Below are positions 46,923 through 64,000 of a DNA stretch of 64,000 nt, in pieces. The stretch spans positions 1 through 64,000 of the forward strand of contig VMSU01000190.1 in assembly GCA_013792005.1 (NCBI GenBank), written 5' to 3'. The notes under the pieces were generated by a model, which ran no database searches, was not told the DNA's origin, and was given only the letters and a program-made list of their open reading frames with translations. How positions within the stretch are numbered: position 1 is the first letter of the stretch; each line of letters begins with the position of its first letter. This DNA is from Desulfobulbaceae bacterium (GTDB lineage: Bacteria > Desulfobacterota > Desulfobulbia > Desulfobulbales > VMSU01). Position numbers and translations under genes: made by a program.

Positions 46923-47225
46923 ATGAGTGCTCAGATCTATTCTAGGGAACAACTAGCGCATGACGTTGTCGAAATCATTAAGGATATGACCCAGGACTGG
47001 GATCTTGATTTTAATGGTGGAATTGACGTCAATACGAAACTCGTAGGTGATCTTGCCTTCGAATCCATCGATATTGTACAGTTTATTGTAGCCATGGAAG
47101 AGAAGTTTCAGCGTCGGGGGTTACCCTGGGAAGAGGTGCTCATGACCGATGGCCGCTACGTCGATGAAATCATAGTAGACGACGCTGTGCGACTTCTCTA
47201 TTCTCATCTCAACACGAGCGTTTAA
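46923..47225 (+). CDS. Acyl carrier protein
   Basis: 100 residues. The carrier-protein helix-II motif appears as DLAFESIDIV with the Ser (about residue 43) that takes phosphopantetheine, flanked by acidic helices (YSREQLAHDVVEIIKDM and VAMEEKFQ). It is longer than housekeeping AcpP and diverged, so it probably serves a dedicated pathway. ATG at 46923 with AGGAG about 9 bases upstream. It is the first gene of the one-direction cluster that follows and would hold a growing acyl or polyketide-like chain for the downstream reductases and methyltransferases. No ketosynthase is visible in the window. Confidence 0.85.
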   Translation: MSAQIYSREQLAHDVVEIIKDMTQDWDLDFNGGIDVNTKLVGDLAFESIDIVQFIVAMEEKFQRRGLPWEEVLMTDGRYVDEIIVDDAVRLLYSHLNTSV

Positions 47226-47250
47226 TTTGTTAGCGCACACAGGGGAGCGA

Positions 47251-48855
47251 ATGATGCATCCGACCCTTTTGATTGGCCTAGACGGCGCGACCTTCACTAT
47301 CCTGGATATCCTGATGGAGCAGGGCGTTATGCCTTTCTTGAGTGATTTTGTCCGGCAAGGGGTACGGGCCGAACTCCGTTCTACTGTTAATCCTCTTACT
47401 CCTCCGGCGTGGACAACGCTTATGACTGGAAGGACGCCGGGTAACCATGGGATTATCGACTTTATTTGGGCGGAACAACGCACCACCGACCATTATTTTA
47501 CCCTGTATAATTTTCGCGACATCCAGTGCGAAACGATTTGGTCTATGGTTTCAAGGCAGGGTGGGCGAGTCTGTTCGCTCAACTTTCCGATCATGGCCCC
47601 TCCACCGGCTGTGAACGGTTTTGTTGTCCCCGGCCTTGTCTCCTGGAAGCATCTGCGCCGCAGCACCCATCCTCAAGAGATATACGAGGAGTTGAAAACC
47701 ATTCCTGACTTTAATCCCCGAGAGTTTGCCTGGGATTTTGCTTTGGAGAAGGAGGCGGCTAAGGGAGTGCCGGCGGAAGAGTTCGAGAATTGGGTGTATT
47801 TTCATCGCCGACGTGAACAGCACTGGTTTAATATCACCCGTCAGATTATGAGCAAGGGGCAGCTCGATCTTGCGGCTATTCTTTTTGACGGGATGGATAA
47901 GATGCTCCATATTGGTTGGCGTCTGCTCGACCCTGCGTGTTTTTCCGGCACTCTTTCCGATGAGGATAACAAGGTGCGAGAGCATATCCTCGGTTATTTC
48001 CGGGACCTTGATGGTTTCTTGGCGGATCTCTGCGAGATGGCTGGACCAGATGCCCGGGTTGTGCTCGCCTCTGATCATGGATTTGGTCCCGCGTATGAGG
48101 TTTTTCGAGTCAACACCTGGCTTGAACAGGAGGGTTATCTTGTCTGGAAAGATTTAGAATCTTCGGATGCCAAAACTCAACAGAGTGTTCAGCGTTTGGT
48201 CGATCAGCACTTTGTCCACCTTGACTGGGAAAAAACCACAGCGTACGCTCGTTCGACGACCTCCAACGGCATTTATATCCGGCAGGCCAAGTCCGGGAAT
48301 GACTTTGGTGTCCCGGCGGACAAGTACGAAGTTTTTCGCAACGAGCTTCGAGATAAATTGTTAAAGGTTGAAAACCCAGATACCGGACGAACTATTGTCA
48401 AGCAAGTTTTCACCCGGGAGGAGGCCTATCCTGGCGCCAATAACGGACAAGCGCCTGATCTGACACTTGTAATGCGGGATCACAGTTTCATCTCCATTCT
48501 GCGCAAGGAACCTTGTGTGGCTACCCGCCCGCATCCAGAGGGTACCCACTATCCGCAAGGGGTTTTTATTGCGCGTGGACCAGGCTTTCCACAGGGAGTG
48601 ACGGCTAGCGAGTTTTCCATCTGCGACATCACCCCGATCCTGCTTTATTCCCTTGGACTTCCCATCTCAGAAGATATAGAGGGAAGGATTCCGCCAGGGG
48701 TGTTCGAGGAGGCTTGTCTCAAAGAAACACCGATCAGGAAAGGACCTCCTACCTTGCCGCCAGATTCTTATGCTGTTCAAGGGGCTTATCATACTTCTTC
48801 AGACGAAGAGAACGCCATTATGAACCAGATGAAGGCCCTTGGGTATATCGAGTGA
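47251..48855 (+). CDS. Alkaline phosphatase superfamily hydrolase (type I phosphodiesterase-like)
   Basis: About 534 residues. The metal-site Asp is in LLIGLDGATF, the likely Thr nucleophile is in PPAWTTLMTGRTPGNHGI, DGMDKMLH supplies a central Asp and His, and SDHGFGP supplies the late Asp-His pair; a final His may come from PEGTHYPQG. The family cleaves phosphate mono- or diesters, or transfers such groups; cluster members often act on lipids or glycans. There is no signal peptide or TM, so it is likely cytoplasmic. ATG at 47251 follows GGGGAG; ATG at 47254 is equally possible. It is 25 bases after the carrier protein gene. Confidence 0.83.
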   Translation: MMHPTLLIGLDGATFTILDILMEQGVMPFLSDFVRQGVRAELRSTVNPLTPPAWTTLMTGRTPGNHGIIDFIWAEQRTTDHYFTLYNFRDIQCETIWSMVSRQGGRVCSLNFPIMAPPPAVNGFVVPGLVSWKHLRRSTHPQEIYEELKTIPDFNPREFAWDFALEKEAAKGVPAEEFENWVYFHRRREQHWFNITRQIMSKGQLDLAAILFDGMDKMLHIGWRLLDPACFSGTLSDEDNKVREHILGYFRDLDGFLADLCEMAGPDARVVLASDHGFGPAYEVFRVNTWLEQEGYLVWKDLESSDAKTQQSVQRLVDQHFVHLDWEKTTAYARSTTSNGIYIRQAKSGNDFGVPADKYEVFRNELRDKLLKVENPDTGRTIVKQVFTREEAYPGANNGQAPDLTLVMRDHSFISILRKEPCVATRPHPEGTHYPQGVFIARGPGFPQGVTASEFSICDITPILLYSLGLPISEDIEGRIPPGVFEEACLKETPIRKGPPTLPPDSYAVQGAYHTSSDEENAIMNQMKALGYIE

Positions 48856-48864
48856 GAGGGGGCT

Positions 48865-50088
48865 GTGGCCAAGATTGTTCGTAACGGTGTAAGTCTTCAC
48901 CACTCTACTCTCGGTGCAGGCCGAAATGTTGTCCTTATTCATGGATTGGGAGCCAATCACGGATTCTGGGCCCCACGGCTGTTGCTGCCTCTGGCAAGGC
49001 GTTACCGAGTCATCCTTATTGACTTGCGCGGCCATGGTCTGAGCAGTATGCCCAAGCTTGGCTATAGTGTGAGTGACTTTGCTGAGGATGTATTGTGTCA
49101 GTTAGATAATTTGAAGGTGCAGCAGGCGGATATCGTCGGACACAGTTTTGGAGGGATGGTGGCCCTTCAGTGCGCAGTAATGGCGCCGGAACGGATACGA
49201 AGCATTTTTCTCGCAGACACACGGGTGCGAAGTCTTGAGCCGATGAGCGCTGAAGAGACCCCGCCTGAAAGTGCGATTATTACCAGAAAACTTGAGGAAG
49301 TAGGACTGGTTATCCCTGCAGGTGAAAAGGAGGCAGGCCTTTGGTTGCTGGAGCAATTCGCCTCACCCCGCAAGGAAAAGGCCAGAGAACAGCTTCAGCA
49401 AAGTGAACCTTTTATCCCTTTTTCCGCTAAGGAGGGAGGGAATAAATCGGCTAAACGCTGGCTTGAACTCCTTGAGAACACCTCATTGCGTGAGGAGATT
49501 TCCCGGTTTGATCAACCAAGCCGGGAGGCGCTTGCTGCTGTTCGACAGCCCACCATGGCGATGTACGGTGAAAGTGCTCTCACTCGAGAGTCTTTGGAAG
49601 GACTCCAGCGCTATCTTCCGCACTTTTGTTCGATGATCCTCCCTGGCGCCGGTCATTTTTTTCCTCTTACTCATACCGATATTTTTTTGCAAACCCTTAT
49701 GGGCTTTCTGGATGGTCTAACGGAATTGCGCAAGGAAGAGAGACTCCTCATGCAATTTGCCGTGCAGGTGGCGCAAGACGGTAAATCGATTTTTCTTGGC
49801 AGGACGCTCAATGTCTCGTCCGGTGGCCTGTTGGTGGAGGGTAGGGTACGACTTAAGATGGCTGAACAGTTGGAACTTAAGGCTCTTTCGCATAAGGGTG
49901 AGTCCTTGCCGCCGCTTCTTGGCAGGGTGGTGAGGATTGATGAAGATACAATGAGTAATTTGTATCGTTTTGGCATAGCGCTCTTTCCGACTGAGGAGGA
50001 TTGGACTCGGCAGACTGTGCTGTGCCAATCAAGGAATACTGATCCGATCACCCCTGTAACTCAGGATGCGAGCAATATTCCACCATGA
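48865..50088 (+). CDS. Alpha/beta-hydrolase fused to a C-terminal PilZ domain
   Basis: 407 residues, GTG start after AGAGGGGG. Residues about 1-285 are an alpha/beta-hydrolase: oxyanion region HGLGANHGF, nucleophile elbow GHSFGG (Ser about 95) and C-terminal His in GAGHFFP. Residues about 290-385 are PilZ-like: RKEER (RxxxR) followed by NVSSGG (D/NxSxxG), the c-di-GMP-binding signature with Asn in place of Asp. The pairing suggests a hydrolase or thioesterase switched by c-di-GMP. Its stop overlaps the next SDR start (ATGA), so they are coupled. It could release or transfer acyl groups from the carrier protein. Confidence 0.82.
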   Translation: MAKIVRNGVSLHHSTLGAGRNVVLIHGLGANHGFWAPRLLLPLARRYRVILIDLRGHGLSSMPKLGYSVSDFAEDVLCQLDNLKVQQADIVGHSFGGMVALQCAVMAPERIRSIFLADTRVRSLEPMSAEETPPESAIITRKLEEVGLVIPAGEKEAGLWLLEQFASPRKEKAREQLQQSEPFIPFSAKEGGNKSAKRWLELLENTSLREEISRFDQPSREALAAVRQPTMAMYGESALTRESLEGLQRYLPHFCSMILPGAGHFFPLTHTDIFLQTLMGFLDGLTELRKEERLLMQFAVQVAQDGKSIFLGRTLNVSSGGLLVEGRVRLKMAEQLELKALSHKGESLPPLLGRVVRIDEDTMSNLYRFGIALFPTEEDWTRQTVLCQSRNTDPITPVTQDASNIPP

Positions 50089-50864
50089 TCGATACAGCGA
50101 ATCCCCTTAGTGGACAAGTCGCTATTATCACCGGAGGCAGTATTGGTATCGGCTATTGTACCGCCGTGGCTCTTGCCCGGGCAGGGGTGAAAGTTGTCCT
50201 TGTTTCTCGGGATCAAGATCGAGTCGATGGGGCGGTGGCTGAATTGCTGCAGGATAGTGTTGAAGCGGAAGCCCTTGGCCTTGCCCTTGACGTGAAAAAT
50301 CCGACCGACATGGAGACTATGGCCATGCTCACCATGGAGCGTTTTGGCCGTATCGATATCCTGATTACTGCGGCTGGAGTTCTCAGGGTGGGTAGCGGTG
50401 TCCCCCGGACTCTGGCTCAGATGCCCGTTACAGAGTGGGACGATGTGCTTACAACAAACCTCCGAGGTGTTTTTCTCGCCAATCGGGCAGTCATTCCCGC
50501 TATGCTCCGGCAGCGCGCGGGGCAAATCGTCAATCTTTCCTCCACTTCGGGCCGGAAGGGTCTGGCCTTTGACGCTGCCTATTGCGCTTCAAAATTTGGA
50601 GTGATCGGTCTAACCGAATCTTTGGCCGAGGAGCTACGTACCTCGGGGATCAGGGTTCACTCTCTTCTGCCTGGAGCCATCGACACCGGGATGTGGGACC
50701 AGAACGGCCCCCTGCCCCCTCCAGAAGATCTTTTGCCGCCTGAACGAGTAGCGGCTTGCATCCATGCCCTTCTTCTGTTGCCGGAGGATGTTGTGTTTGA
50801 CGCTCCGGTAATTGAACCGCTTAAGAGGCATCAGCCGCCTTCCGTGACCAGCCGGCGGCGGTAA
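50085..50864 (+). CDS. Short-chain dehydrogenase/reductase (SDR), copy 1
   Basis: 259 residues, classical SDR. The cofactor motif TGGSIGIG (about 17-24), AAG at the NAG position, catalytic Ser in NLSSTSG, and YCASK with Tyr and Lys are intact. Arg in VSRDQDR after beta-2 favours NADP(H). It most likely reduces a beta-keto or hydroxy group on a carrier-bound chain (FabG-like). It overlaps the upstream hydrolase by 4 bases. It is closely related to the next gene (shared YCASKFG, LAEE, GPxxPPEDxLPPERVA), so the two arose by duplication. Confidence 0.9.
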   Translation: MIDTANPLSGQVAIITGGSIGIGYCTAVALARAGVKVVLVSRDQDRVDGAVAELLQDSVEAEALGLALDVKNPTDMETMAMLTMERFGRIDILITAAGVLRVGSGVPRTLAQMPVTEWDDVLTTNLRGVFLANRAVIPAMLRQRAGQIVNLSSTSGRKGLAFDAAYCASKFGVIGLTESLAEELRTSGIRVHSLLPGAIDTGMWDQNGPLPPPEDLLPPERVAACIHALLLLPEDVVFDAPVIEPLKRHQPPSVTSRRR

Positions 50865-50889: not shown

Positions 50890-51696
50890 ATGAGTTTAGA
50901 CCATCACGTGGCAGTTGTTACCGGCGGCGCGAGCGGCATCGGCAAAGCGACCTGTCTGGTCCTTGCAGAGAAGGGGGCGAAGCTTGTTATTGTCGACCTT
51001 GAACCTCTCCGATTGGAGGCGCTGCTTGGCGTCCTGCGAGCAAAGTTTCCTTTGTGCGAGGCCATGTCCTTTGTTGCCGATGTCCAGAATCCTGAGGCGG
51101 TTGAGGCTATGGTGCACGCTGTTGATGAACGTTTTGGCCGGATCGATCTGCTGGTGCATTCGGCTGGAATTCTTCGCCTGAAGGGAAGCGGTCCCAAGCT
51201 TCTTCATCAAACAAGCGTTGAAGAATTTGATGCAGTGGTAGGGGTTAACCTCAAAGGAACTTTTTTAACTAACCGGGCGGTATTGCGACTGATGATGCGG
51301 CAGCGACGAGGGCACATCGTCAATATTTCTTCCACTTCAGGCATCAAGGGGCGGGCCTTTGACTCGGTATACTGCGCCTCGAAGTTTGGCATGATCGGGC
51401 TTTCCGAGGCCTTGGCCGAGGAAGTCAGGGCCGCAGGAATCAAGGTGCATGTGATTCTGCCGGATGCGGTGGATACTCCCATCTGGCAGCAGAACGGTCC
51501 GGTCCAACCGCCTGAGGATACCCTTCCTCCAGAAAGGGTTGCGGATCTTATCCTCTACCTTGCTGAGCTGCCAGAGGATACCATTCTCGACCATTTGGTC
51601 ATTCGAGCGTTTCGCAGTCGTCGTAAGCGTAAAAAAACAACTGATCCTGGCATCGAGGCGGCGCCTAATTCAGCCTGTTCCTCGGAAAAACAGTAA
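50890..51696 (+). CDS. Short-chain dehydrogenase/reductase (SDR), copy 2
   Basis: 268 residues. TGGASGIG cofactor loop, HSAG, catalytic Ser in NISSTSG, and YCASK are intact. An acidic residue after beta-2 (IVDLEPL) suggests NAD(H), unlike copy 1, so the two enzymes may run opposite or sequential redox steps. AAGGAAAG precedes the ATG. It follows copy 1 by 25 bases and precedes the first methyltransferase by 14. The basic C-terminal tail (RSRRKRKK) is unusual for the family and may touch membrane or nucleic acid. Confidence 0.9.
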   Translation: MSLDHHVAVVTGGASGIGKATCLVLAEKGAKLVIVDLEPLRLEALLGVLRAKFPLCEAMSFVADVQNPEAVEAMVHAVDERFGRIDLLVHSAGILRLKGSGPKLLHQTSVEEFDAVVGVNLKGTFLTNRAVLRLMMRQRRGHIVNISSTSGIKGRAFDSVYCASKFGMIGLSEALAEEVRAAGIKVHVILPDAVDTPIWQQNGPVQPPEDTLPPERVADLILYLAELPEDTILDHLVIRAFRSRRKRKKTTDPGIEAAPNSACSSEKQ

Positions 51697-51710: not shown

Positions 51711-52511
51711 GTGAACGTGGAACCGCAAAATGCCCCGACCAAGCAGGCGCTCAACCGTCTTTATGATGAGCGGATGTTTAATGAGATGGTGGATGAGTAT
51801 TATAGCGGCAGCAGATTCCTGAACTTCGGGTATTGGGAGAATCAGGTGCAGAGTCCCAAAGAGGCCAGCGAAAACCTTCTCGGAAGGCTGCTCTCATTTA
51901 TTCCGGAAAAGAAGGGGACCATTCTTGACGTGGCTTGTGGCACCGGAGCGACCACCCGCTTTCTCCTCAATTTTTATCCTCCCGAGCACGTAACCGGCAT
52001 TAATATTTCCGCAAAGCAGCTCGACACCTGTCGGCAGATGGCGCCTGGTTGCCGCTTTTTGGAGATGGATGCGGCAGCACTGCAATTTTCCGATGCCTCC
52101 TTTGACGCTATTATTTGTGTTGAAGCGGCCTTTCATTTTCACACCAGGGAGAAATTCCTGCAGGAGGCGTTACGGGTTCTTAAAACTGGCGGCATCCTGG
52201 TGCTTTCCGATGCTTTGATCTCCAGCGTTGCCAAAGAGCAGCGGCCACACTTTCCTGAGGCAAATTTCATTGAGCAACTGGAGGATTACCGGGGACTTTA
52301 CCAACAGCTCGGTTTTGCCAAGGTCGTGATCGAGGATGCGACCAAGCAGAGTTGGGAGGCCTCCTTCTGGAGCGTTATTCAATTTGCCTATGGAAAATTC
52401 CTGATTGGCGCCATTGACGCGGATCAGCTTTATGCCTTTCTTGACCGAATCTATCGGCTGACAACGGATCTTCATCACTATGTATTGGTAAAAGCGATGA
52501 AAGAGTCCTAA
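51711..52511 (+). CDS. SAM-dependent methyltransferase, tandem copy 1
   Basis: 266 residues, GTG start behind GGGAGAG. N-terminal signature EYYSGSRFLNFGYW; motif I ILDVACGTGATTRFL (about 60-75); INISAKQLDTCRQMAPGC; ICVEAAFHF; LRVLKTGGILVLSD. These are type-11 class I methyltransferases similar to those that methylate small hydrophobic molecules (for example in rifamycin or terpenoid routes). It is the first of three adjacent paralogues. Confidence 0.87.
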   Translation: MNVEPQNAPTKQALNRLYDERMFNEMVDEYYSGSRFLNFGYWENQVQSPKEASENLLGRLLSFIPEKKGTILDVACGTGATTRFLLNFYPPEHVTGINISAKQLDTCRQMAPGCRFLEMDAAALQFSDASFDAIICVEAAFHFHTREKFLQEALRVLKTGGILVLSDALISSVAKEQRPHFPEANFIEQLEDYRGLYQQLGFAKVVIEDATKQSWEASFWSVIQFAYGKFLIGAIDADQLYAFLDRIYRLTTDLHHYVLVKAMKES

Positions 52512-52552: not shown

Positions 52553-53362
52553 ATGACCTCTCCTGATCAGGCAAGTTCTCCGCAGACTTCGGCCATTGCC
52601 GCCCACTACGATGCCACCATGTACCAGCCGGTATTCCTTGAGTATTACGGGCACAGCAATTTTTCTAATTTTGGTTATTGGGATCAAGAGGCACAGGATC
52701 AAAAAGGCGCCTGCGAAGCTTTGATGAAAAAGCTTCTGGGCTTGTACCCCGGAAGTCGGCAGGGCCGGGTGCTTGATGTTGCCTGTGGCAAAGGAGGGAC
52801 CACCAAGCATCTGCTTGATCTTTTTGAGTCAGATAACATCTCGGCGGTCAACATTTCGAGTAAACAACTGGATTCTGCCGCCGTTGTTGCTCCAGGGTGT
52901 CATTTCGCGGCCATGGATGCCGTGCAGCTGGGTTACAAAGATTCGAGCTTTGACTTGGTGGTGTGCGTGGAGGCGGCCTTTCATTTTGTCACCCGCGAGC
53001 GGTTTTTTACGGAAGCATACCGGATTCTTAAACCAGGAGGCACGCTGCTTCTCACCGATATTCTGATGAATATCGAAGCGGAGACCAGATTGCCTTACCG
53101 GACTCCGGAGAATTTTGTCGCTGACGTTGAGGCTTATGAAATGATCCTGCGGACCAAGGGGTTCGTAAACATCAATGTAATTGATGTGACCAAGGAGTGC
53201 TGGCATGGCTGTTATTGGAATATGGTTCGTCTCGCTCATGCTCAATTTTTAGCTCGGCGCATTGATGCTGCCATGCTGCGTGCCTATCTTGAAAAGGCGT
53301 ACCGGATGGTAGAAGATATTGAGTACTATTTCTTGGTTTCCGCACAGAAAAAAGGCGAATAA
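52553..53362 (+). CDS. SAM-dependent methyltransferase, tandem copy 2
   Basis: 269 residues, ATG at 52553. It has the same architecture as its neighbours: EYYGHSNFSNFGYW, VLDVACGKGGTTKHLL, VNISSKQLDSAAVVAPGC, VCVEAAFHFVTRERFF, ILKPGGTLLLTDIL. Motif I carries Lys (GKG) where copy 1 has Thr. The three are similar enough to be paralogues yet differ in the pocket regions, so sequential methylations or different positions are likely. Spacing of 41 and 13 bases places it in the same transcript. Confidence 0.87.
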   Translation: MTSPDQASSPQTSAIAAHYDATMYQPVFLEYYGHSNFSNFGYWDQEAQDQKGACEALMKKLLGLYPGSRQGRVLDVACGKGGTTKHLLDLFESDNISAVNISSKQLDSAAVVAPGCHFAAMDAVQLGYKDSSFDLVVCVEAAFHFVTRERFFTEAYRILKPGGTLLLTDILMNIEAETRLPYRTPENFVADVEAYEMILRTKGFVNINVIDVTKECWHGCYWNMVRLAHAQFLARRIDAAMLRAYLEKAYRMVEDIEYYFLVSAQKKGE

Positions 53363-53375: not shown

Positions 53376-54206
53376 ATGAGCGCATCCGGTCAATCATCTT
53401 CAGGAGTAAATCGCGAGGGAGTCTTTACGATCACCAAGGACTGTCAGCCGAACAAGGACGGGTATGACAGTCTGATGTACTGGGGACCTCTTGAGGAGTA
53501 TTATTGCGGCAGTGATTTCGTTAACTACGGTTACTGGATGGAGGATACCCCGGATGCGCGCGTGGCTTCGGAGAACTTGATGGAGCAGCTTCTTGCCTGG
53601 CTGCCGAAGAAAGAGGGTGCTATTCTCGATGTAGCCTGCGGTAAGGGGGCATCGACCCGCCATCTGCTTAATTATTATCCATCTGCCGCGATCACCGGTA
53701 TTAATGTCTCTGAGAAACAGCTTGAGACCTGCCGGCGGCTTGCCCCAGGTTGTCGGTTTATGCTCATGGATGCCGTTGCCCTTGATTTTCCGGATAACTT
53801 CTTTGATAACATTATCTGCGTGGAGGCGGCGTTTCATTTCAATACTCGGGAGCAATTTTTCCGTGAGGCATTGCGGGTGTTGAAACCGGGAGGGCGGCTG
53901 GTGCTCTCCGATATTCTGCTCACTCAGGAGGCTGAAGAGCGGAGACGGTTCCGTGCTGTGGATAATTTTTTACCTAATCTGGCAGCTTATGAAGCGGTGA
54001 TGAGGCGGGTAGGCTTTACAGGCGTCGAAGTGACGAATGCCACAGCTCCTTGTTTTCACGGGGCCTACTGGCACCTCATCCGTTTCAGTCACGAAAAACT
54101 CCTGCGCCATGATATGACGATAGATTCGATGAAAAATTTTTTGAAACGGGTACTCGCCTTCGTTCCCGAGATTCGCTACTACTTACTCGCCTGCGGGCAA
54201 AAATGA
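53376..54206 (+). CDS. SAM-dependent methyltransferase, tandem copy 3
   Basis: 276 residues from the ATG at 53376; an upstream in-frame start at 53319 overlaps copy 2. EYYCGSDFVNYGYW, ILDVACGKGASTRHLL, INVSEKQLETCRRLAPGC, ICVEAAFHFNTREQFF and LRVLKPGGRLVLSDILL follow the family order. It is closest to copy 1. Its stop codon is the first three bases of the family B repeat (54204), so the element inserted exactly at the end of the gene or supplied the stop. Confidence 0.87.
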   Translation: MSASGQSSSGVNREGVFTITKDCQPNKDGYDSLMYWGPLEEYYCGSDFVNYGYWMEDTPDARVASENLMEQLLAWLPKKEGAILDVACGKGASTRHLLNYYPSAAITGINVSEKQLETCRRLAPGCRFMLMDAVALDFPDNFFDNIICVEAAFHFNTREQFFREALRVLKPGGRLVLSDILLTQEAEERRRFRAVDNFLPNLAAYEAVMRRVGFTGVEVTNATAPCFHGAYWHLIRFSHEKLLRHDMTIDSMKNFLKRVLAFVPEIRYYLLACGQK

Positions 54207-54419: not shown

Positions 54420-55292
54420 ATGAAAAAATATCAAGTCAACATGACTTACGAGCCCTTTGCCAAGGAGCCGGAATACATTGAGGCCAATCGTGCCTTTGTC
54501 CGGAAGATGGATCTTGACGGGGTTGAACGCCTTCTTGATCTTGCCTGCGGGATTGGCACCATGAGTGAACTGCTGCTCGATCGTAAGCCGGGTCTTGATA
54601 TTGTTGGCATTGATCTTTCTCGGGAATCGTTGGCCATCGGTCTTGATTCTTTCCGCACTGCATCGCAGTTGGAAAGAGAACAAAGAGGACCGTTAGCCTT
54701 TGTTCAAGCAACGGCCGATGTTCTGCCCTGTTTTGACGACTGCTTCGATGCGGTGGTGATGGGTAACTCCATCCATATGCTGCCTGATGCCGACAGGCTG
54801 GTGACTGAAATTGGTCGGGTGTTGCGGCCTGCCGGATTTCTCGCCTTTAATAGCACCTTTTATGCCGGCACCATGCCGAAGGGTACGGAGAAGTTTCATC
54901 ACGAGTGGATGAAGCAGGCTGTCTCCTATCTGGTGCGCAAGGATCTTGAACTTCGTAAGGCAGGGGAGCCAGGGATCCCCAGAAAACGGGGGACCATGCC
55001 CGGCGCCTTTTCCAACCAGTGGCCTTCGCCTGAGGAATGGACTGCCACTTTGGTGAGACACGGCTTGAGGGTAGAGTACCGTGGGGAACGGATGGTGGAG
55101 ATGACGCAGCGCAATTTTGAGTACATTGGCGCGTATGGCGGTTTTGCCAAGGTGGTTTTGAGCGGCTATCCGGTCGAGGAGGCAAGTGAGGCTCTGCAGG
55201 CCACCGCCGGACCAGCTTTGACTGCGGTGGGTATGACCACCGTTCCCAGGCTTTGGCTGGAAATTATCACAAGAAAAGAGGACGCAGCATGA
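54420..55292 (+). CDS. SAM-dependent methyltransferase (MenG/UbiE-like class)
   Basis: 290 residues. Motif I LLDLACGIGTMSELLLD (about 38-54), VGIDLSRESL, DDCFDAVVMGNSIHML and IGRVLRPAGFLAFN are class I methyltransferase landmarks. It lacks the EYY-GYW N-terminus of the three preceding enzymes, so it has a separate origin, probably with a different acceptor. Its stop overlaps the radical SAM start (ATGA), so the two are translationally coupled. ATG at 54420 has no strong ribosome site; repeat family B lies immediately upstream. Confidence 0.85.
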   Translation: MKKYQVNMTYEPFAKEPEYIEANRAFVRKMDLDGVERLLDLACGIGTMSELLLDRKPGLDIVGIDLSRESLAIGLDSFRTASQLEREQRGPLAFVQATADVLPCFDDCFDAVVMGNSIHMLPDADRLVTEIGRVLRPAGFLAFNSTFYAGTMPKGTEKFHHEWMKQAVSYLVRKDLELRKAGEPGIPRKRGTMPGAFSNQWPSPEEWTATLVRHGLRVEYRGERMVEMTQRNFEYIGAYGGFAKVVLSGYPVEEASEALQATAGPALTAVGMTTVPRLWLEIITRKEDAA

Positions 55293-56893
55293 AGGATCTG
55301 GACATTCTGTTTATCGGGGCGGTCATGAATTATGATGGCTCGACCGGCTCACTTGCCAATTACATCCGCAAAAAAGGCAAGTGGATGGCGCCGTTTCAGT
55401 ATATTTACGATCAGCATCGGGAACTATTCACCTCCGAAGCCGATGCCTGTGTCTATGATATTCCCAATTTAAGCATCTGCGAGCTGGTTGATTACCTCAA
55501 GCGTCATGGAGAGCTTGAATTTCATATTATCTGGCATTTCGACTACCATAAGGAAGAGATTCTTGAGATCTTCAGGACCAGGCCTCCTAAGATCATTGCC
55601 GTATCGAGCACCTTGGCCTTCTTTCCTGAATATCTGAAGAGCTGCATTCACTGGTTGAACACCCATAAACCGGCGGAAACCCGGGTGGCGGTTGGTGGCA
55701 AATGGCTTTATGCCAACTTCAGCCAATTTGGTCCTTCCAACAAGTTTGAGAAAACACTTACCGAAGTGGATGCGGATTATTATGTCATTAATCGCTACGG
55801 TCAAGAGACTCTGCGTCTGCTGCTTGCGGCCCATAAGACCGGGGACACCGCTGCGATTCGGGATCTGCCGAATCTTGCCTATCGGCGAAGCCTGGACTTG
55901 GGGCAGCCGACGACAGCCACCCATGCCGGAGCAGACTACATCATCAATCCGGTAATCACCGAGGCCCACGAACAGGGAAAGTATCTTGTCGATTTCCACA
56001 ATATCGGCGAGCGATTCCTTGGTGATATCGTCCACGTACGCACGGCGAGTTCCTGCCCTTTTCACTGCCGTTTCTGCACCTTTCCTGCTTTGGCCGGGGA
56101 ATATGTCGCCTTTGGTCTCGACCTCGTAATCGCCCAGCTCAAGCAGCTTAAGAGCTTGGGGGTGAAAAAACTGTTCTTCATTGATGATACCTTCAACGTG
56201 CCGCTCAAACGGTTTGAGGAGTTGCTTGACCGGATGATCGCGGAAAATCTCGAGTTGGAGTGGGTATCTTTTTTTCGGGCCCAATATTCCACTGCCGAGG
56301 TGGTCAAGAAGATGCGGGATGCCGGTTGCCGCATGGTCTTTTGCGGGATTGAATCGGGTAATGATGAGATTTTGAAGGCCATGAACAAGCGGGTAACGGT
56401 CGCTGATTTTGAGCGGGGATTCGACTTTCTTCATCGCGCCGGTATTACTATCGCGGCCTCTTATTTTATCGGGTACCCCGGTGAGACCCACCAGACCGCC
56501 ATGGACACCCTGCGATTGCTCAACGACCCCCGGATTGCCTTTTCCCGTGGCAGCGTCTTCTATTACGATCCCAATGCCCCGGTGGGGGCGATGGCTGAAG
56601 AGTACGGGCTTTCCGGTAATGGAGCCGAGTGGAGGCATAATACCATGAGCAGTCGGGAGGCCGCTCAGATCCATCTGGAGATAGTGGACAAGATTCAAAA
56701 CGTCAATGTCCAGATTTCTGACGGCGCTGGCTGGAGCGTCTTTCACCTCTACTCCAAGGGGCTTAGCATCGAGCGGCTGCAAACCCTCTACACCGAGTTT
56801 AATACCATTCAGAAAGAACAGATTCAGGGGGCTGGTCGCACGGCCCTCTCCCAGTACCGGGTGTTTGGCAAAAAACGTAAGGAAGAGGCGTAA
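55289..56893 (+). CDS. Radical SAM enzyme with N-terminal B12-binding-like region
   Basis: 534 residues. The cluster motif SCPFHCRFCTF (CxxxCxxC, about 255-265) binds the 4Fe-4S that cleaves SAM. The N-terminal ~190 residues are arranged like the B12-binding half of class B radical SAM methylases (IIAVSSTLAFFPEYL, RVAVGGKW), though a canonical DxHxxG cobalamin ligand is not obvious. The core includes FIDDTFNV, FFRAQYS, CGIESGNDEIL and SYFIGYPGET. It may methylate or rearrange an unactivated carbon. ATG at 55289 overlaps the preceding stop by 4 bases, and the next gene follows after 5. Confidence 0.85.
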   Translation: MKDLDILFIGAVMNYDGSTGSLANYIRKKGKWMAPFQYIYDQHRELFTSEADACVYDIPNLSICELVDYLKRHGELEFHIIWHFDYHKEEILEIFRTRPPKIIAVSSTLAFFPEYLKSCIHWLNTHKPAETRVAVGGKWLYANFSQFGPSNKFEKTLTEVDADYYVINRYGQETLRLLLAAHKTGDTAAIRDLPNLAYRRSLDLGQPTTATHAGADYIINPVITEAHEQGKYLVDFHNIGERFLGDIVHVRTASSCPFHCRFCTFPALAGEYVAFGLDLVIAQLKQLKSLGVKKLFFIDDTFNVPLKRFEELLDRMIAENLELEWVSFFRAQYSTAEVVKKMRDAGCRMVFCGIESGNDEILKAMNKRVTVADFERGFDFLHRAGITIAASYFIGYPGETHQTAMDTLRLLNDPRIAFSRGSVFYYDPNAPVGAMAEEYGLSGNGAEWRHNTMSSREAAQIHLEIVDKIQNVNVQISDGAGWSVFHLYSKGLSIERLQTLYTEFNTIQKEQIQGAGRTALSQYRVFGKKRKEEA

Positions 56894-56898: not shown

Positions 56899-59340
56899 AT
56901 GAGTTCCGGTGCGCTTGCTGATCTGAAGGTCCTCGATCTCACTCATTATATCGCTGGTCCGTACTGCACTAAACTGTTGGCAGGTTTTGGGGCCGAGGTC
57001 CTCAAGATCGAACGGCCCGGCACGGGGGACCCGTTGCGATCTGTCGGCCCGTTTACCAAAGGGTGTTCCGATATCGAGATGAGCATTCCCTTCCTCTGGT
57101 TGAATACCGGAAAGAAGAGCGTGGCTTTGGATCTTAAGAGCGCCCCCGGCTTGGAATATGTTAAAAAGCTTATCGCCTGGGCAGACGTTTTGGTGGAGAA
57201 CTTCGCTCCAGGGGTCATGATGCGTCTTGGCCTTGATTATGAAACGATTCAGGCTATTAATCCTCGGTTGATCATGACTTCAGTGAGTAATTTTGGCCAG
57301 GTTGGACCTTACCGGGACTGCCGAGCTGAGGAGATTACACTTTATGCCATGAGCGGCCAGATGAACGCCACCGGCGATCCTGATCGTGAACCGCTTGCCC
57401 CTGGGCTGGCCATTAATCAATATACTGCCGGTCTTCATGCCTATATCGGGACTCTTGCCGCCCTGCATCACCGTGAGAAGACGGGAGAGGGCCAGCACGT
57501 GGATATTTCGCTCCACGAAAGCGGGGTGGACAATATCGAAATTGGGTTGATCAATTTTCTTCATCAGGGCATTCGCAGCAGGCGCAGTAAACATATCATG
57601 GTTCCTTGGCGCAATTACCCCTGTAAGGACGGAATGGCGACAGTTATTTGCGCGCCTTTTCGTCACTGGGTACAGGGGGCAAGACTTTTTGAGGCGCCGG
57701 AGCTTCTGCAGGAAAAATATCATCATGTCCGGGGTCGTCACGTGGAACGTGAACGGGTGGAGGAGCTTATTCAGCCGTGGATCAGCTCTAAGACCCGCGA
57801 GGACATATTTCATGCCGGCCAGCAACAAGGGCTGGCCTTTGGCTATCGGGCCAGTTTGGCCGAAGCCTTGGCGCTTCCCCAACACCTGGCTCGCGACTTT
57901 TTTGTGAAAACAGATGACGGACGTGGTGGAAGTTATAACTATCCCGGGGCGCCGTTTAAGCTTTCCGCAACCCCATGGCATCAGGAACGGGCTCCTCTGC
58001 TGGGCGAGCATACTGCGGCAGTGCTTAGCAGGACTCTAAAGCTGGACCGTGCCGAGCCGGATCAGCTCGGTGCAGCGGGGGTTGGGGAAGGGTTTAAACA
58101 AGCTGCTGCAGAAGACGCGTCTAGGGTTACACCGAGGGGGGCCTTGACCGGTATCCGGGTCCTTGATCTCACCCATAGCTGGGCCGGGCCGCATGGTACC
58201 CGTATCCTTGCCGATCTTGGCGCTGAAGTTATCAAGATTGAGTATCTTCCCAGGCTCTGCCTGCTCCGGGCCGGGATCGTCAAAGATCAAATGTACAACA
58301 AACGGCCCATGTGGTTTCAAGTAAACAGGGGTAAGCGTTCTGTGACCCTGGACATGAATAACCCTGAGGAGCTGGAGACCTTTCTCGATCTTGTGCGGAT
58401 CTCCGATGTGGTGGTGGAAAATGCCCGGGGTGGGGTGCTCGAACGTCGAGGTCTTGATTATCACAGTCTTGTTAAGGTGAAATCAGACATTATTTTTCTT
58501 TCCATGGCTGCTTTTGGCAAGACAGGGCCTTATGCCTCGTATGCCGGATATGGCGCTACCATGGAGGCGTTAAGCGGAGCAGAATCTCTCACCGGATATT
58601 ATGGCTCGACCGAAACCAAGCGAGTTCGCGAGATCGATGTGACCAATGGCATTTTTGGCGCTGCCGCAGTCCTTACCGCTCTTCACCACCGCGAGAAAAC
58701 CGGCAAGGGGCAATGGATTGATCTCTCTCAGTTGGAAACAGTCTCTCACGGCCTTATCGGCGAGCATCTCCTCGCTTTTGCCATGAACGGTATCGTTCCC
58801 CCTGTCCGTGGCAATCGTCATGAGCGGTTTGCTCCCTGTGGCTGCTACCCTTCGCTAGGAGAGGATCGCTGGGTGACCCTGGTTATCCGCAATGATCGTG
58901 AATGGCTGGAATTATGTGAACTTATTGATAGGCCTGCATTGAGTAATGATCCACGCCTGCAGACCGTCACTGGCCGCATGGCACATCACGACGAGATTGA
59001 TCGCGCCATTGCTGAGTGGACCTCTGCCAGAGAAGCCGGTGAGGTGCAGGATTTACTTCAGTCGCAAGGTATTGCCGCAGGTGCAGTAATGAACGTTGAA
59101 GATCTGAGTCGTGACCCCCATCTCGTGGCACGTGGTTTTTTGGTGACCACAAGCGACGGAGGAGAGGAATTGTATCCCGGCAACCCTATACGACTATCTC
59201 GAGATCACTCTCCTCCTGCGTGGCGGGGGCCTGATCTTGGTCGCGACAACGAATATGTCTTGTGCTCGTTACTCGGCAGGAGTCAGGCCGAAGTCCCTCA
59301 TATCTGCGAAGATGATCTGGGCACGGCCTTGGATCCTTAA
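56899..59340 (+). CDS. Tandem class III CoA-transferase (CaiB/BaiF), two fused domains
   Basis: 813 residues formed of two CaiB/BaiF domains: about 1-390 (LKVLDLTHYIAGPYCTKLLAGFGAEVLKIE) and about 415-800 (IRVLDLTHSWAGPHGTRILADLGAEVIKIE). In class III enzymes an Asp forms the acyl/CoA intermediate. The matching position is Gln174 in the first half (AINQYTAG) and Asp580 in the second (EIDVTNG). Only the second half should therefore be catalytic; the first may bind CoA or act as a scaffold. The same layout is known in DddD-type DMSP CoA-transferase/lyases, but no DMSP genes are nearby. It could move a CoA between acyl acids of this pathway. The next gene starts on the base after its stop. Confidence 0.87.
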   Translation: MSSGALADLKVLDLTHYIAGPYCTKLLAGFGAEVLKIERPGTGDPLRSVGPFTKGCSDIEMSIPFLWLNTGKKSVALDLKSAPGLEYVKKLIAWADVLVENFAPGVMMRLGLDYETIQAINPRLIMTSVSNFGQVGPYRDCRAEEITLYAMSGQMNATGDPDREPLAPGLAINQYTAGLHAYIGTLAALHHREKTGEGQHVDISLHESGVDNIEIGLINFLHQGIRSRRSKHIMVPWRNYPCKDGMATVICAPFRHWVQGARLFEAPELLQEKYHHVRGRHVERERVEELIQPWISSKTREDIFHAGQQQGLAFGYRASLAEALALPQHLARDFFVKTDDGRGGSYNYPGAPFKLSATPWHQERAPLLGEHTAAVLSRTLKLDRAEPDQLGAAGVGEGFKQAAAEDASRVTPRGALTGIRVLDLTHSWAGPHGTRILADLGAEVIKIEYLPRLCLLRAGIVKDQMYNKRPMWFQVNRGKRSVTLDMNNPEELETFLDLVRISDVVVENARGGVLERRGLDYHSLVKVKSDIIFLSMAAFGKTGPYASYAGYGATMEALSGAESLTGYYGSTETKRVREIDVTNGIFGAAAVLTALHHREKTGKGQWIDLSQLETVSHGLIGEHLLAFAMNGIVPPVRGNRHERFAPCGCYPSLGEDRWVTLVIRNDREWLELCELIDRPALSNDPRLQTVTGRMAHHDEIDRAIAEWTSAREAGEVQDLLQSQGIAAGAVMNVEDLSRDPHLVARGFLVTTSDGGEELYPGNPIRLSRDHSPPAWRGPDLGRDNEYVLCSLLGRSQAEVPHICEDDLGTALDP

Positions 59341-61764
59341 ATGAGCCTCATGGATATCGAGACCATTCCCCACTCACTCCCATCGATTTCACCGTTGTTG
59401 CGGCAGCATTTTTCTCCCGCTGTGGTTGGTGGCTGGGGTGATGGTCAGAATTCGTATGTCCATGCCATGACATGGTTCAAGGGGCATCTGTATGTTGGAG
59501 TCACCCGGAATGCCTTAAACGGCGTTCGGCCATACTCCCGGATGGAGGCCATGGAAATTTACCCGGTGAAGGTGCCTGACATCCAGTGGGATCTTGACTG
59601 GCGTGCCCCGATTTGGCGGTATAGTCCGGAGGCAGGCACTTGGGAACGGGTCTTTGTCTCACCCATGGTCATGGGTACACGCGGTTTTCCTGTGCCACGC
59701 CAGTGGGGTTATCGTAACATGAGGGTTTTTCAAGGAAAAAGCGACCCTGAACCCGCCCTCTATGTTATTTCCTGGGGGTCGCACATGGGACCTGGTCCAC
59801 ATGTCCTGCGCTCATTAGATGGAAAGCATTTTGCCGAGGTTGGAGATGAAGCCCTCAAACGTATCGGCGCCACCACTCTCCGAGGACTTGTTCCCTTCAA
59901 AGGCCGCCTCTTTACTTCGCCCGCTGCCCGCTGTGGCGGTACGGATACCGGCACTCACGATGTCCCGATTATCCTTGCCAGCGATGACCCGGCAAACGGA
60001 TCGTGGAAGCAGGCGTGTATGCCCTGTTTCGGGGATCCGAATAATATCGCCATCTCGGCTATGGCGGTGATGGACGAGTACTTGTATGCCGGCACCATGA
60101 ATCCTACGGAAGGCTATCAGGTTTGGCGGACCACGGCAGAGGGGGACCCGCCCTATAGTTGGGAGCGGGTCCTCACCCTTGGCGCCTACCGGGGAAATCT
60201 CAATGAGGCGGCTGCCACTTTGTGTCCTTATCGCGGCGCTCTTTACATCGGCAGCGGTATCTACAACCTCGGTTTTGACCGTATCCATGGGGTAGGGCCT
60301 GGTATGCCGGAATTGATTCGCCTGTATCCCGATATGTCATGGGATCTTATTGCCGGCGAACCGCGATTGACTCCAGATGGGGTAAAGATGCCGATGAGCG
60401 GATATGGCGCTGGGTTTAACAGCCCCTTTGTCGGATACATCTGGAGCATGTGTGTCCATGATGGGTGTCTCTATCTGGGCACGGCCAACTGGTCGCCATG
60501 GCTGCTGTTCACAAAAACCAGCATTTGGGAGGAATATATTGTTAAGCAACTTCCCTCGGTAGACATGGAAAGCCTGTTAAACTACCTGGGCGGATTTGAA
60601 CTCTGGCGCACTGGGGATGGGAATCGTTGGGCTCCCATCACGCGCAACGGGTTTGGTAACTGCTTCAATGTTGGGGTTCGCACACTGTCCTCGACTCCGG
60701 TAGGGTTGTTTGTCGGGGTGGTGAATCAGTTTGGTGAAGAGGTGGCTGTGCGACGCCAGGCCGGTTGGCGCTACGAATATAATCAGCGGGGCGGTGTTGA
60801 AGTGTGGCAGGGTAACACCGAGACTCCTGCACCTCCTGAAAGAAACGAGGCGATCACCATTGTTCCCATGCGGGACGAGTATGGAGTCTTGTTGGGCAGG
60901 CCAAACACTGATAAATGGCTTTCGTTTGTCGCTCGGTTCTACCGGCAGAGCGGTTGGCACCATACCGGATTCTGGCGTATTTCCATGCAGGAGGCCAATG
61001 ATGCCTGCGAAAATCTCATGGCGGAACTTGTCGCTTTTTTCCGGCCTGAAGCCGAAGTGAAGGAGCCTCAATATCCTAAGCCCCAACAGGTGCAGCAGTG
61101 GATTGCCTCTCGCAGCGATGAGCCGTGGGAGGATTACCAGCAAAAGCGAAAGAGCAAGAGCAGGGAAACTATATTGGATGTGGGGTGCGGACTTGGCAAT
61201 TCAACAGACTATCTTGCCCGATATTACCATTCAACGGGCATTATGGGAGTGGCGACGAGTAATGAACTCGCTGCTCTTTGTCGGCGCCGTTATCCGGAAC
61301 TGGGATTTGTGGCGACACGATTTCCTAAACTTTCCGTGGGCAAGGGCACTTTCGACAAGGTAATCTGTAATGAGGCGCTTGCCAGTTGTAGTTCACGTCG
61401 CACGCTTCTGGCCGAGATACACCGCGTGCTCAAACCCGGTGGGATGCTGGTTTTTTCTGATATGATCCTTCCGTCCAGCAAGGACGGACCATTTTCTTTG
61501 GAAAAATACCATGAGCTTCTCGAAGAGATCGGTTTTGATAGTGTTCGTATACTTGACGTGACCGCTCATACTTCGACCTTCTTTCGTAATCGGTGTATGA
61601 GTTTTTTTCTTACTGAGACGCTGCTCCATAACACCCAGCACAAAAAACCACACGATTTTCTTACTTTACTGCCAGGTGGATTTGGGGAGATTCCTTGCTA
61701 TCTCCTTGGTTTTGGCGTACAAAAGACGAAAAAGCCAAATATGTTGAAGAGATTGATTTCTTAG
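59341..61764 (+). CDS. Beta-propeller-like protein fused to a SAM methyltransferase
   Basis: 807 residues. About 1-510 reads as repeated beta-sheet blades, with recurring FKGHLYVGV, YRGALYIGSG, DGCLYLGTANW and DEYLYAGTMNP blocks followed by WERV/WDL strands; there is no signal peptide. About 600-780 is a class I methyltransferase (ILDVGCGLGNSTDYLA, VICNEALASC, IHRVLKPGGMLVFSD), related to the tandem trio. I know of no described protein with this pairing. The propeller may present a substrate or carrier. ATG at 59341 abuts the CoA-transferase stop. It ends 167 bases before the TPR gene. Confidence 0.78.
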   Translation: MSLMDIETIPHSLPSISPLLRQHFSPAVVGGWGDGQNSYVHAMTWFKGHLYVGVTRNALNGVRPYSRMEAMEIYPVKVPDIQWDLDWRAPIWRYSPEAGTWERVFVSPMVMGTRGFPVPRQWGYRNMRVFQGKSDPEPALYVISWGSHMGPGPHVLRSLDGKHFAEVGDEALKRIGATTLRGLVPFKGRLFTSPAARCGGTDTGTHDVPIILASDDPANGSWKQACMPCFGDPNNIAISAMAVMDEYLYAGTMNPTEGYQVWRTTAEGDPPYSWERVLTLGAYRGNLNEAAATLCPYRGALYIGSGIYNLGFDRIHGVGPGMPELIRLYPDMSWDLIAGEPRLTPDGVKMPMSGYGAGFNSPFVGYIWSMCVHDGCLYLGTANWSPWLLFTKTSIWEEYIVKQLPSVDMESLLNYLGGFELWRTGDGNRWAPITRNGFGNCFNVGVRTLSSTPVGLFVGVVNQFGEEVAVRRQAGWRYEYNQRGGVEVWQGNTETPAPPERNEAITIVPMRDEYGVLLGRPNTDKWLSFVARFYRQSGWHHTGFWRISMQEANDACENLMAELVAFFRPEAEVKEPQYPKPQQVQQWIASRSDEPWEDYQQKRKSKSRETILDVGCGLGNSTDYLARYYHSTGIMGVATSNELAALCRRRYPELGFVATRFPKLSVGKGTFDKVICNEALASCSSRRTLLAEIHRVLKPGGMLVFSDMILPSSKDGPFSLEKYHELLEEIGFDSVRILDVTAHTSTFFRNRCMSFFLTETLLHNTQHKKPHDFLTLLPGGFGEIPCYLLGFGVQKTKKPNMLKRLIS

Positions 61765-61779
61765 TAACCGTTCACCAAC

Positions 61780-61888
61780 TGTAAACGTTCACAGTGCTGC
61801 AGATTCGCGAAAGAGGCCTGTGCGCTATACATATGGTCTGCGAACCAGGCCGATGACAAAGCAGATGCGGCGCTGCTGAATGTTTACG
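61780..61888. repeat. Imperfect palindrome between methyltransferase fusion and TPR gene
   Basis: GTAAACGTTCA at 61781 matches the complement of TGAATGTTTAC ending at 61887, with further pairing of GGCCTG with CAGGCC inside. It is the only gap of size in this part of the cluster. It could form an RNA hairpin or be a diverged repeat. Confidence 0.35.
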
Positions 61889-61931
61889 ATTTCTTAGTTG
61901 TTTTCTGTTGAAACGAGGTTTTGGTAAACAG

Positions 61932-63374
61932 ATGGAAGAGACAGAATTTTTCCCCCGCATCAAACGATTGGGCAACGGGCCTCAGGCCAAGTTAGCTCTC
62001 GCCATCGCCCATGTGGAAAAGGGGGACGCCCAGGCAGCCATTGTTGAGTGCGAGGGTGTGCTTTGTTGGAATAGTCGCTACGCTCTGGCGCATTTTGTCT
62101 TGGCCGGAATTTATACCGATCTTGGCCGCTACCAAGAGGCGCTTGCCTCTTCGGCTGCAGCGCTCGATAGTGATGACAAACTTACGGAAGCGCACCGCTT
62201 GCGAAGTTATGTTTTCACTGAAACTCAGCGTTACCGCGAGGCTGTGCGCGAACGGCACGCAGCTCTTGCTCTTGATCCTGAAAATGCTCTTGATTATCAC
62301 CGTCTGGGAGAATTGTATTTGGCTCTTGGTGAGATTGAGCAGGCTATCCAGGCATTTCGGCAGGCGATACATTACAACCCGCAGATGGCGATGAGTTATT
62401 ATGGTCTGGCCAACGCTCTGGTGAAGGCCAAGCAGGATGAGGACGCGACAGCGACCTTGGAAACTGTATTGCGGATTAGCCCAGGGTTTCCCAAGTCCCA
62501 TCTGCTGTTGGGAGATATTGCCATGAACCGTGGCCAGTTTGCCGTTGCCGTATCCCACTATCGGGAAGCGCTTAAGCTGAATCAGAAACAGGCGGAACCG
62601 CATTACCGGCTGGGAGAACTATATTTACAGATGGGTGAATATCCCACCGCCTTACTGGAATTTCGGCTCTCTCTTACGATTAAACCTCGATATGCCAAGG
62701 CGCACCATCGCTTGGGCAACATCTATTTTGCCCTTGGGAATTTCAACCTTGCCCTGCAACAGTACGAAGCGGCAGTGATTTGCAACCCTAATCTTGCCCG
62801 CGCTGTGGCTGATTCCGGCGATGCCCTCCTTGCCTTGGGTCGTTGGGAGGAGTCGGTTGACCGGTATCGTCGCGCTTTAGGTCATATCGATATCGTAAGT
62901 AGCGAAGGCGATGCCTTGCTCAGTGAGAACCGTCCCATGGAAGCTATCCTTGAATATCGGGAGCGACTCGGGATGGAGAAAAACCTGATCATCCCGGCGG
63001 CTATCACCTCAGAACTGAAAACCCCCAGGCATCTCGAACAGGACGAACGCCGCCGCGAAGATCGTTTGGCCCTTGCCATGCCGGTTGACTTGCGGGAGCA
63101 AGCGGGAAGCTACGTAGGGGCCACCTTGGTCAACATCTCGAATAAAGGGTTTCTGGTGGAGACTCCGGAGGAGATGGTGATGGAAAGCGAGATTGAGATT
63201 ATTACTGATCTTGATGTGGAGGGTCGCAAGATATCAGCTCGCGGCAAGGTAGTCCGTCAGGAAAATGGAAAGCCTAAGGGTCCGTTTCGTTACGGTGTGT
63301 CACTTGTTCAAAAAAGTGATGCATGGGAGCGGTATCTTATTGATACGACAAATGACTCAGGAGGAGATTCGTGA
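61932..63374 (+). CDS. TPR-repeat protein with C-terminal PilZ domain
   Basis: 480 residues from the ATG at 61932 (a TTG at 61908 would add eight). About 10 tetratricopeptide repeats cover residues 5-340 (for example YHRLGELYLALGEIEQAIQA, AHHRLGNIYFALGNF), a protein-protein scaffold. Residues about 375-475 are PilZ: RRREDR (contains RxxxR), then NISNKG in place of DxSxxG. It should bind c-di-GMP. There is no signal peptide or TM. It is the second PilZ protein of the cluster. Its stop overlaps the GTG start of the next gene, so they are coupled; the TPR part may recruit that membrane protein. Confidence 0.83.
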   Translation: MEETEFFPRIKRLGNGPQAKLALAIAHVEKGDAQAAIVECEGVLCWNSRYALAHFVLAGIYTDLGRYQEALASSAAALDSDDKLTEAHRLRSYVFTETQRYREAVRERHAALALDPENALDYHRLGELYLALGEIEQAIQAFRQAIHYNPQMAMSYYGLANALVKAKQDEDATATLETVLRISPGFPKSHLLLGDIAMNRGQFAVAVSHYREALKLNQKQAEPHYRLGELYLQMGEYPTALLEFRLSLTIKPRYAKAHHRLGNIYFALGNFNLALQQYEAAVICNPNLARAVADSGDALLALGRWEESVDRYRRALGHIDIVSSEGDALLSENRPMEAILEYRERLGMEKNLIIPAAITSELKTPRHLEQDERRREDRLALAMPVDLREQAGSYVGATLVNISNKGFLVETPEEMVMESEIEIITDLDVEGRKISARGKVVRQENGKPKGPFRYGVSLVQKSDAWERYLIDTTNDSGGDS

Positions 63375-64000
63375 TACCATTACGGCCGACACTGCGTGAA
63401 GATCTGCAGATCATCCCGCGCCACGACGAGGAGGGACGCTGCCGCTACCTGCTCAAGGACCCTATCAGCACTGAAGTTTTCGATTTCGGAGCGGAAGAGC
63501 ATTTTCTCTGTGAGCGTTTCGATGGTGTCCAGCAGTTGCCTGCGGTTAGAGAGGCCTTTGCTGCCAGTTTTGGAGTGGTTATCGCCACTGAATCACTGGA
63601 GGCCTTTGTCCGCTACCTTGGAGCGCTGGGCCTTCTCAAACGGCCCACTGGGGAGGAGACTGTCGCTGCCCATGATCAGGGGATGCATTACCGTCTCTGT
63701 AATCCTGACCGGTTTCTCGGGGTTTTTGCCTCCTTGTTTAGCTGGTGCTTCTCTTGGGTTGGACTCGCAGTTGTCGGAATGCTCGCCTTTTTCGCCTTAG
63801 GGGTGGCAATGCGGCACGGTAGCGATTTTATATTCGGGCTTCGCTTCATTCCTAAAGAAGAGTTGGTCTTAGCTATTCCCCTCTATTGGATACTGTTCAT
63901 CAATCCCTTATCTGAAACTGCCAAGGCCCTGTCTTGTCGAGTTAATGGAGGTCATGTCTACGAGTTTTGTTTCTCCTGGGTTTTTCGGGTGGTACCGCAT
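63371..64000 (+). CDS. PqqD-like/M50-like membrane protein with degenerate HExxH (partial)
   Basis: The first 210 residues of a gene cut by the window end; GTG start at 63371 overlaps the TPR-PilZ stop. Residues about 1-95 are PqqD-like (LRPTLREDLQIIPRHDEEG, YLLKDPISTEVFDFG), as in bacterial M50-type exporter proteins. Hydrophobic segments lie at about 118-148 and 163-182. The next stretch reads NPLSETAKALSCRVNGGHVY, aligning with the HExxH zinc site of the M50 family (usually LHEFGHAL..R.GG.V), but here it is SExxK (Ser181-Lys185), so protease activity is unlikely. It may be a transport partner for HlyD-type export. Assignment is moderate because the rest is unseen. Confidence 0.6.
   Translation, partial: MIPLRPTLREDLQIIPRHDEEGRCRYLLKDPISTEVFDFGAEEHFLCERFDGVQQLPAVREAFAASFGVVIATESLEAFVRYLGALGLLKRPTGEETVAAHDQGMHYRLCNPDRFLGVFASLFSWCFSWVGLAVVGMLAFFALGVAMRHGSDFIFGLRFIPKEELVLAIPLYWILFINPLSETAKALSCRVNGGHVYEFCFSWVFRVVPH

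Follow-up and report, generated by a model that had tools for sequence, protein, structure and literature searches.

Pfa and other secondary-lipid synthases are encoded in clusters that were classed as types A to T by Shulse and Allen in 2011 (PMC3098273), and several tandem acyl carrier proteins (ACPs) in one protein are usual, although not required, for these synthases (PMC3098273). Despite how widespread Pfa-like loci are, very few secondary lipids have been identified (PMC13291983). The heterocyst glycolipid (hgl) islands of cyanobacteria likewise combine a Pfa-like synthase with export across the envelope (PMC11804610). The locus considered here lies in a 64,000-nucleotide stretch of DNA from a Desulfobulbaceae bacterium (hereafter the window), which constitutes the first 64,000 bases of a 93,610 bp contig (C190) in a 4.0-Mb draft genome that is 97.6% complete. 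We consider it likely that a block of genes beginning at position 46923 provides tailoring, export and control in a PfaA-type secondary-lipid synthase locus and forms one half of it, the other half, two megasynthases, having been moved away and inverted in this genome. The best reading of the locus is as an uncharacterised branch of the secondary-lipid-synthase kind, and its product would be a long, multiply methylated and exported lipid. To our knowledge, no product has been described for any such locus.

The block lies entirely on the plus strand and comprises 14 genes, 13 of them complete and one cut at position 64000. The initial annotation had reported a gene set running in one direction, and every gene that it listed is found at its place and on its strand, the cut gene included in the 14. 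The tight packing that it had described also holds, with intergenic gaps of -4 to 41 bp, except for two larger ones of 213 bp (between MT3 and MT4) and 143 bp (between the propeller-methyltransferase and TPR-PilZ genes). Counts from a promoter and terminator scan equalled those of shuffled sequences (16 versus 14.6 and 19 versus 19.5), and transcript boundaries are therefore not claimed. Elsewhere in the window, also on the plus strand, a single ORF (23000-32614) encodes a giant fusion protein of 3204 aa, in which a multihaem cytochrome part with 24 CxxCH haem motifs (aa 31-907, MtrC/cytochrome c7-like) is combined with 11 Calx-beta domains and, at the C-terminus, an Lcl_C domain, and two very large hybrid sensor kinases of 1534 and 1631 aa, containing PAS, GAF and receiver domains, occupy 5625-10229 and 10872-15767.

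The block opens with a free-standing ACP of 100 aa (46923-47225), which has a Ser within the motif FESID (aa 46-50), followed by an AlkP-superfamily (type I phosphodiesterase) hydrolase, AlkP (47227-48855; PF01663, 141.7 bits), whose true start is probably an ATG near 47251-47254 and whose PDB matches, to NPP and phosphonoacetate hydrolase, are weak. Next come an alpha/beta hydrolase-PilZ fusion (ABH-PilZ, 48865-50088; PF00561 and PF07238) and two SDRs that resemble 3-ketoacyl-ACP reductases, SDR1 (50085-50864) and SDR2 (50890-51696). Four class I methyltransferases follow, comprising the SAM-dependent MT1 (51711-52511) and its paralogues MT2 (52553-53362) and MT3 (53376-54206), as well as MT4 (54420-55292). 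The solved structures nearest to MT3 include D-glucose O-methyltransferase and MitM, and copies of MT4 that are 40-45% identical occur in loci of Tectomicrobia and Rhodobacteraceae. A fifth methyltransferase domain of the block is joined to a beta-propeller (59341-61764), the propeller covering aa 1 to about 500 and the methyltransferase aa about 560-807. The 'propeller' of the initial annotation is now backed by a confident AlphaFold model (pLDDT 84.8), the best PDB matches of which are Kelch and lectin beta-propellers; Pfam gives no match for this domain, and a fold search for function returned only generic Kelch/lectin propellers, with a TM-score by query of at most 0.4.

Between MT4 and the CoA-transferase gene lies a radical SAM gene (rSAM, 55289-56893), whose product carries CxxxCxxC at aa 256-263. 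Its presence had been noted before; the specific likeness to PhpK is an addition. The radical SAM P-methyltransferase PhpK (TIGR04479) is its best family by a wide margin, matching over nearly the full length at 363 bits against 94 bits for the next family, yet the score is under the curated PhpK cut-off of 600 bits. PhpK is also the best match for the corresponding proteins of two relatives (G518 and G298) and of locus L065, and the G299 and G301 proteins belong to a different type. In a structural model of the window's protein (pLDDT 74.7), the predicted fold appears to resemble cobalamin-dependent radical SAM enzymes, the closest folds (AprD4, TsrM, MgmA, OxsB, TokK and CysS) being mostly of that kind; Pfam gives no B12-binding match. 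A PhpK score so far over the next family, together with the weak likeness of AlkP to phosphonoacetate hydrolase, would fit a phosphonate or phosphinate pathway, with phosphorus as the methyl acceptor of the PhpK-like enzyme and an ester of phosphonate or phosphate as the substrate that AlkP cleaves. However, the score falls short of the PhpK cut-off, the block has PKS partners, and PEP mutase is without a match in the bacterium's own genome with two models (PF13714 and TIGR02320), nor was it found in G518, G298, G300 or G304 when five relatives were searched with one model. This pathway is disfavoured because no PEP mutase was found, and we regard it as very improbable. Among the relatives searched, PEP mutase occurs only in G301, a metagenome-assembled genome (MAG) labelled Scalindua, whose radical SAM genes are of another type.

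Heteromeric family III CoA-transferases of the BbsEF type would be expected to carry the catalytic Asp in only one of two paired parts. The tandem family III CoA-transferase of the block (CoAT2, 56899-59340) shows this pattern, with Gln in its first half and the catalytic Asp in its second, and across the homologues compared the catalytic-Asp column, defined by alignment to YfdE, holds Gln or His in 8/8 first halves and Asp in 8/8 second halves. Its first half matches one subunit of the heteromeric benzylsuccinate CoA-transferase (PDB 9fn0) and its second half the other; the two halves are fused in the window, G518 and G301 and are separate genes in other relatives.

The last two genes of the block concern control and export. 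In both PilZ proteins of the window, ABH-PilZ (RKEER, NVSSGG) and the TPR-PilZ protein (61908-63374; RREDR, NISNKG), the c-di-GMP motifs RxxxR and [D/N]xSxxG are intact. Both motifs of TPR-PilZ are kept in six near relatives, and the hydrolase-PilZ fusion is limited, among the relatives compared, to the window, G518 and G528. TPR-PilZ rather than the hydrolase fusion is the conserved PilZ element, and the locus is probably under c-di-GMP-responsive control. The PilZ control proposed earlier thus stands as far as the predicted motifs go, but the hydrolase-PilZ fusion is confined to the closest relatives. The 'M50-like exporter piece' (63371-64000, continuing to contig position 65662) is present, and it proves to be the N-terminal part of a 763-aa protein. 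This protein begins in a PqqD-like manner (by inspection), continues with an M50-like membrane part, to which the daptide and LiaK intramembrane-protease models match, and has a HlyD domain at its C-terminus. The HExxH zinc motif is absent from this protein and from 9/10 homologues, being present (as HELAH) in one from Tectomicrobia. Extension of the contig past 64000 up to 93,610, a check that the initial annotation had proposed, recovers the rest of this exporter gene, then TolC, then a PHB-depolymerase-like esterase and a sulfotransferase-like gene and, farther on, a PKS pair. Of the HlyD/ABC export genes anticipated there, HlyD and TolC are found, but no ABC transporter gene occurs in the next 8 kb (contig 64-72 kb, by Pfam and inspection).

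The ketosynthase that had been anticipated beyond 64000 also exists, though on the opposite strand: the PKS pair occupies 78201-91552 of the contig, on the minus strand, some 10 kb past the point where the cluster ends. PKS1 (2735 aa) has an ER of the FabK/NMO type followed by KS-AT-ACP-KR-DH, and PKS2 (1715 aa) is organized as KS-AT-ACP-DH-PPTase. PKS1 scores above the NCBIfam PfaA cut-off (TIGR02813; 1169 versus 1010 bits), and PKS2, scored as a 1116-aa part only, reaches 650 bits against the same model. The motifs of the KS, AT, ACP, KR and PPTase domains are intact, the DH is assigned by Pfam alone, and the ER is present; several tandem ACPs were not found, each megasynthase having one LGIDSI. 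The backbone builder is thus a PfaA-family secondary-lipid synthase, a known kind. Two gene pairs, IS3-type transposases and a RelBE-like toxin and antitoxin (both by inspection), lie between the block and the synthases, at contig C190 75858-77033 and 77525-78101 (in L002), and may be traces of rearrangement. A blastn search of 45.9-46.95 kb against the contig for a scar of PKS displacement found no repeat. Directly upstream of PKS1, at contig C190 91785-93608 (L003 11786-13609), is a gene for a protein without a Pfam family, a 32% identical homologue of which has the same place in G528.

Whether the block and the synthases form one locus is addressed by gene order in relatives, the comparison that the initial annotation had called for. 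In G518, which belongs to the same order and another family, all 18 genes are collinear on one strand of contig C13, with the synthases directly upstream (PKS1-PKS2-ACP-AlkP-ABH-PilZ-SDR1-SDR2-MT1-MT2-MT3-MT4-rSAM-CoAT2-PropMT-TPR-PilZ-M50HlyD-TolC-esterase), and the tailoring genes are 50-76% identical to those of the window (rSAM 76%, MT3 72%, propeller 72%, AlkP 67%). Most of the gene set recurs in the same order in G297, G298, G299, G300, G301 and G528. From the collinearity in G518 it follows that the genes are one unit, rearranged in the window's genome. In G528, g607-PKS1-PKS2 lie on the opposite strand, diverging from ACP, and the same g607-PKS1-PKS2 order ends the window's contig. A tree of PKS2 ketosynthases groups the window with G518 and G528 (100% SH-aLRT), and the AlkP tree places it with G518 within a nine-member clade that contains all CoA-transferase loci; this grouping, the concordant AlkP clade and the shared g607-PKS1-PKS2 order together argue that the displaced synthases belong to the block. 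That genes of unrelated function merely happen to lie side by side here and that the downstream PKS is unconnected, as the distance of about 10 kb, the inversion and the intervening IS3-type element might suggest, is scarcely credible, since the block recurs collinearly in G518 and largely in six other genomes, and the AlkP and KS clades are concordant. The idea of one biosynthetic unit that includes the ketosynthase is accordingly upheld, and gene content, linkage, conservation, catalytic motifs and PKS membership can be taken as established.

An AlkP alignment, run against 84,980 species genomes, yielded 80 loci, of which 70 have a close AlkP (35-60% identical) and ten a distant one. Within the fetched flanks, close-AlkP loci contain the PKS pair or part of it in 54/70 cases (several of the 16 others being cut by contig ends), an alpha/beta hydrolase in 63/70, an ACP in 44/70 and the propeller in 42/70; none of these four is found in any of the 10 distant-AlkP loci. 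A short core of PKS pair, ACP, AlkP and alpha/beta hydrolase, often with SDRs and the beta-propeller, is thus shared by about 70 loci; these come from some ten phyla, which by record title are Desulfobacterota/Deltaproteobacteria, other Proteobacteria, Cyanobacteria, Nitrospira, Chloroflexi, Acidobacteria, Actinobacteria, Planctomycetes, Poribacteria and Tectomicrobia. Within the window's order, a strong AlkP match occurs in 9/258 genomes, its own counted, and the gene is absent from nine others in its genus and family; the trait is therefore patchy. A plasmid-borne origin was considered and rejected, no plasmid record matching the AlkP protein at E 1e-40. One window-clade locus (L094, on G301:C201) lies in the MAG labelled Candidatus Scalindua (Planctomycetes), which may reflect horizontal transfer or mis-binning. 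In Fischerella and Westiellopsis (L036, L042 and L046), the PKS pair, ACP and AlkP are followed directly by an M50HlyD-like exporter gene, and cyanobacteria of this type may offer the simplest setting in which to look for a product.

The related loci also bear on the nature of the product. CoA-transferase and MT1-3-like genes mark the window's clade, GT1 glycosyltransferases mark a separate AlkP clade, and this division suggests two branches, with methylated/CoA-transferred and glycosylated end products, respectively. A glycolipid locus of the heterocyst-glycolipid type, which the PfaA-like synthase, the SDRs, HlyD and TolC export and the GT1 genes of many related loci recall, appears unlikely, as neither the window nor G518 has a glycosyltransferase in the block and the CoAT/MT clade stands apart from the GT1 clade. 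A diffusible secondary metabolite, such as an antibiotic-like polyketide, in place of an envelope lipid is a possibility of some weight, albeit a doubtful one: the TolC/HlyD export genes, many tailoring methyltransferases and patchy distribution agree with it, but the synthase is of the iterative PfaA family with no NRPS or modular PKS partners, and the addition of glycosyltransferases in related loci is as expected for glycolipids.

For the preferred reading, a secondary-lipid locus, the following route is proposed; in it, the substrates of all enzymes, the sequence of the reactions, what AlkP and the hydrolase catalyse, the part played by the propeller and the type of product are inferred. 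PKS1 and PKS2, activated by the PPTase domain of PKS2, would extend a chain iteratively with malonyl units, using KR, DH and the FabK-type ER. The long chain or a late intermediate would pass to the free ACP, and SDR1 and SDR2 would reduce leftover keto groups to alcohols, the hydroxyls of which MT1-MT3, MT4 and the propeller-linked methyltransferase might O-methylate. The PhpK-like enzyme could place a methyl group on an unactivated carbon; AlkP and the alpha/beta hydrolase may set the chain free or alter its head; and the two-part CoA-transferase would convert a free acid into a CoA ester. Passage of the product through the envelope would fall to the inactive-M50/HlyD protein and TolC, and TPR-PilZ (here together with the hydrolase-PilZ fusion) would tie activity to c-di-GMP. 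Gene content and synteny support, as a prediction, the acyl-carrier-borne, reduced, multiply methylated and exported product that had been proposed from the window. Against this reading stand the separation of the synthases from the block in this genome, which makes their coordinated expression there a supposition, the single ACP per megasynthase, unlike typical Pfa synthases, the patchiness of the trait, and a block without thioesterase, glycosyltransferase or ABC exporter. More tentatively, and perhaps against the odds, a widespread undescribed release-and-export cassette (free ACP, AlkP, alpha/beta hydrolase, beta-propeller and inactive-M50/HlyD) may partner PfaA-type synthases in about ten phyla, and the window's branch would use it to make exported long-chain lipids of a new class, methylated several times on O and C, with c-di-GMP as the controlling signal.

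Within the partial coverage of the literature search, no paper links an AlkP gene with Pfa-like synthases, and none describes this combination of tailoring genes, the recurring AlkP-hydrolase-propeller core or the division into two branches. The pathway had been called undescribed; that description may fit the tailoring combination, but not the builder, which is of the known PfaA-family kind, or the short core, which extends to about ten phyla. The polymethoxy-1-alkenes of cyanobacteria were set aside as a chemical analogue, nothing tying them to the AlkP/PKS locus family. Testable enzymes offered by the locus include the propeller-methyltransferase, which belongs to no known family, the PhpK-like radical SAM protein, whose genome lacks PEP mutase, and the exporter linked to PilZ. 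With the Pfa/secondary-lipid synthases (PMC3098273, a text search of which turns up neither a phosphodiesterase nor an alkaline phosphatase as a partner), the locus has in common PfaA-family KS-AT-ACP-KR, DH, ER and PPTase domains, but it differs in having one ACP per protein, a FabK-type ER at the N-terminus of PKS1 and a PPTase fused to PKS2. It resembles the hgl islands in its Pfa-like synthase and export across the envelope, whereas it has no glycosyltransferase or ABC exporter (block and 64-72 kb) and has methylation and CoA-transfer genes in addition. The GT1-bearing AlkP/PKS loci (L032, L047, L053, L062, L066, L067, L071 and L091) share the core of PKS pair, AlkP, hydrolase and propeller, but in them GT1 glycosyltransferases replace the CoAT, MT1-3 and rSAM genes of the window. 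The AlkP-hydrolase-propeller core beside a PfaA-type pair serves as a marker that groups about 70 loci from many phyla and divides them into two branches, one with glycosyltransferases and the other with methylation and CoA transfer.
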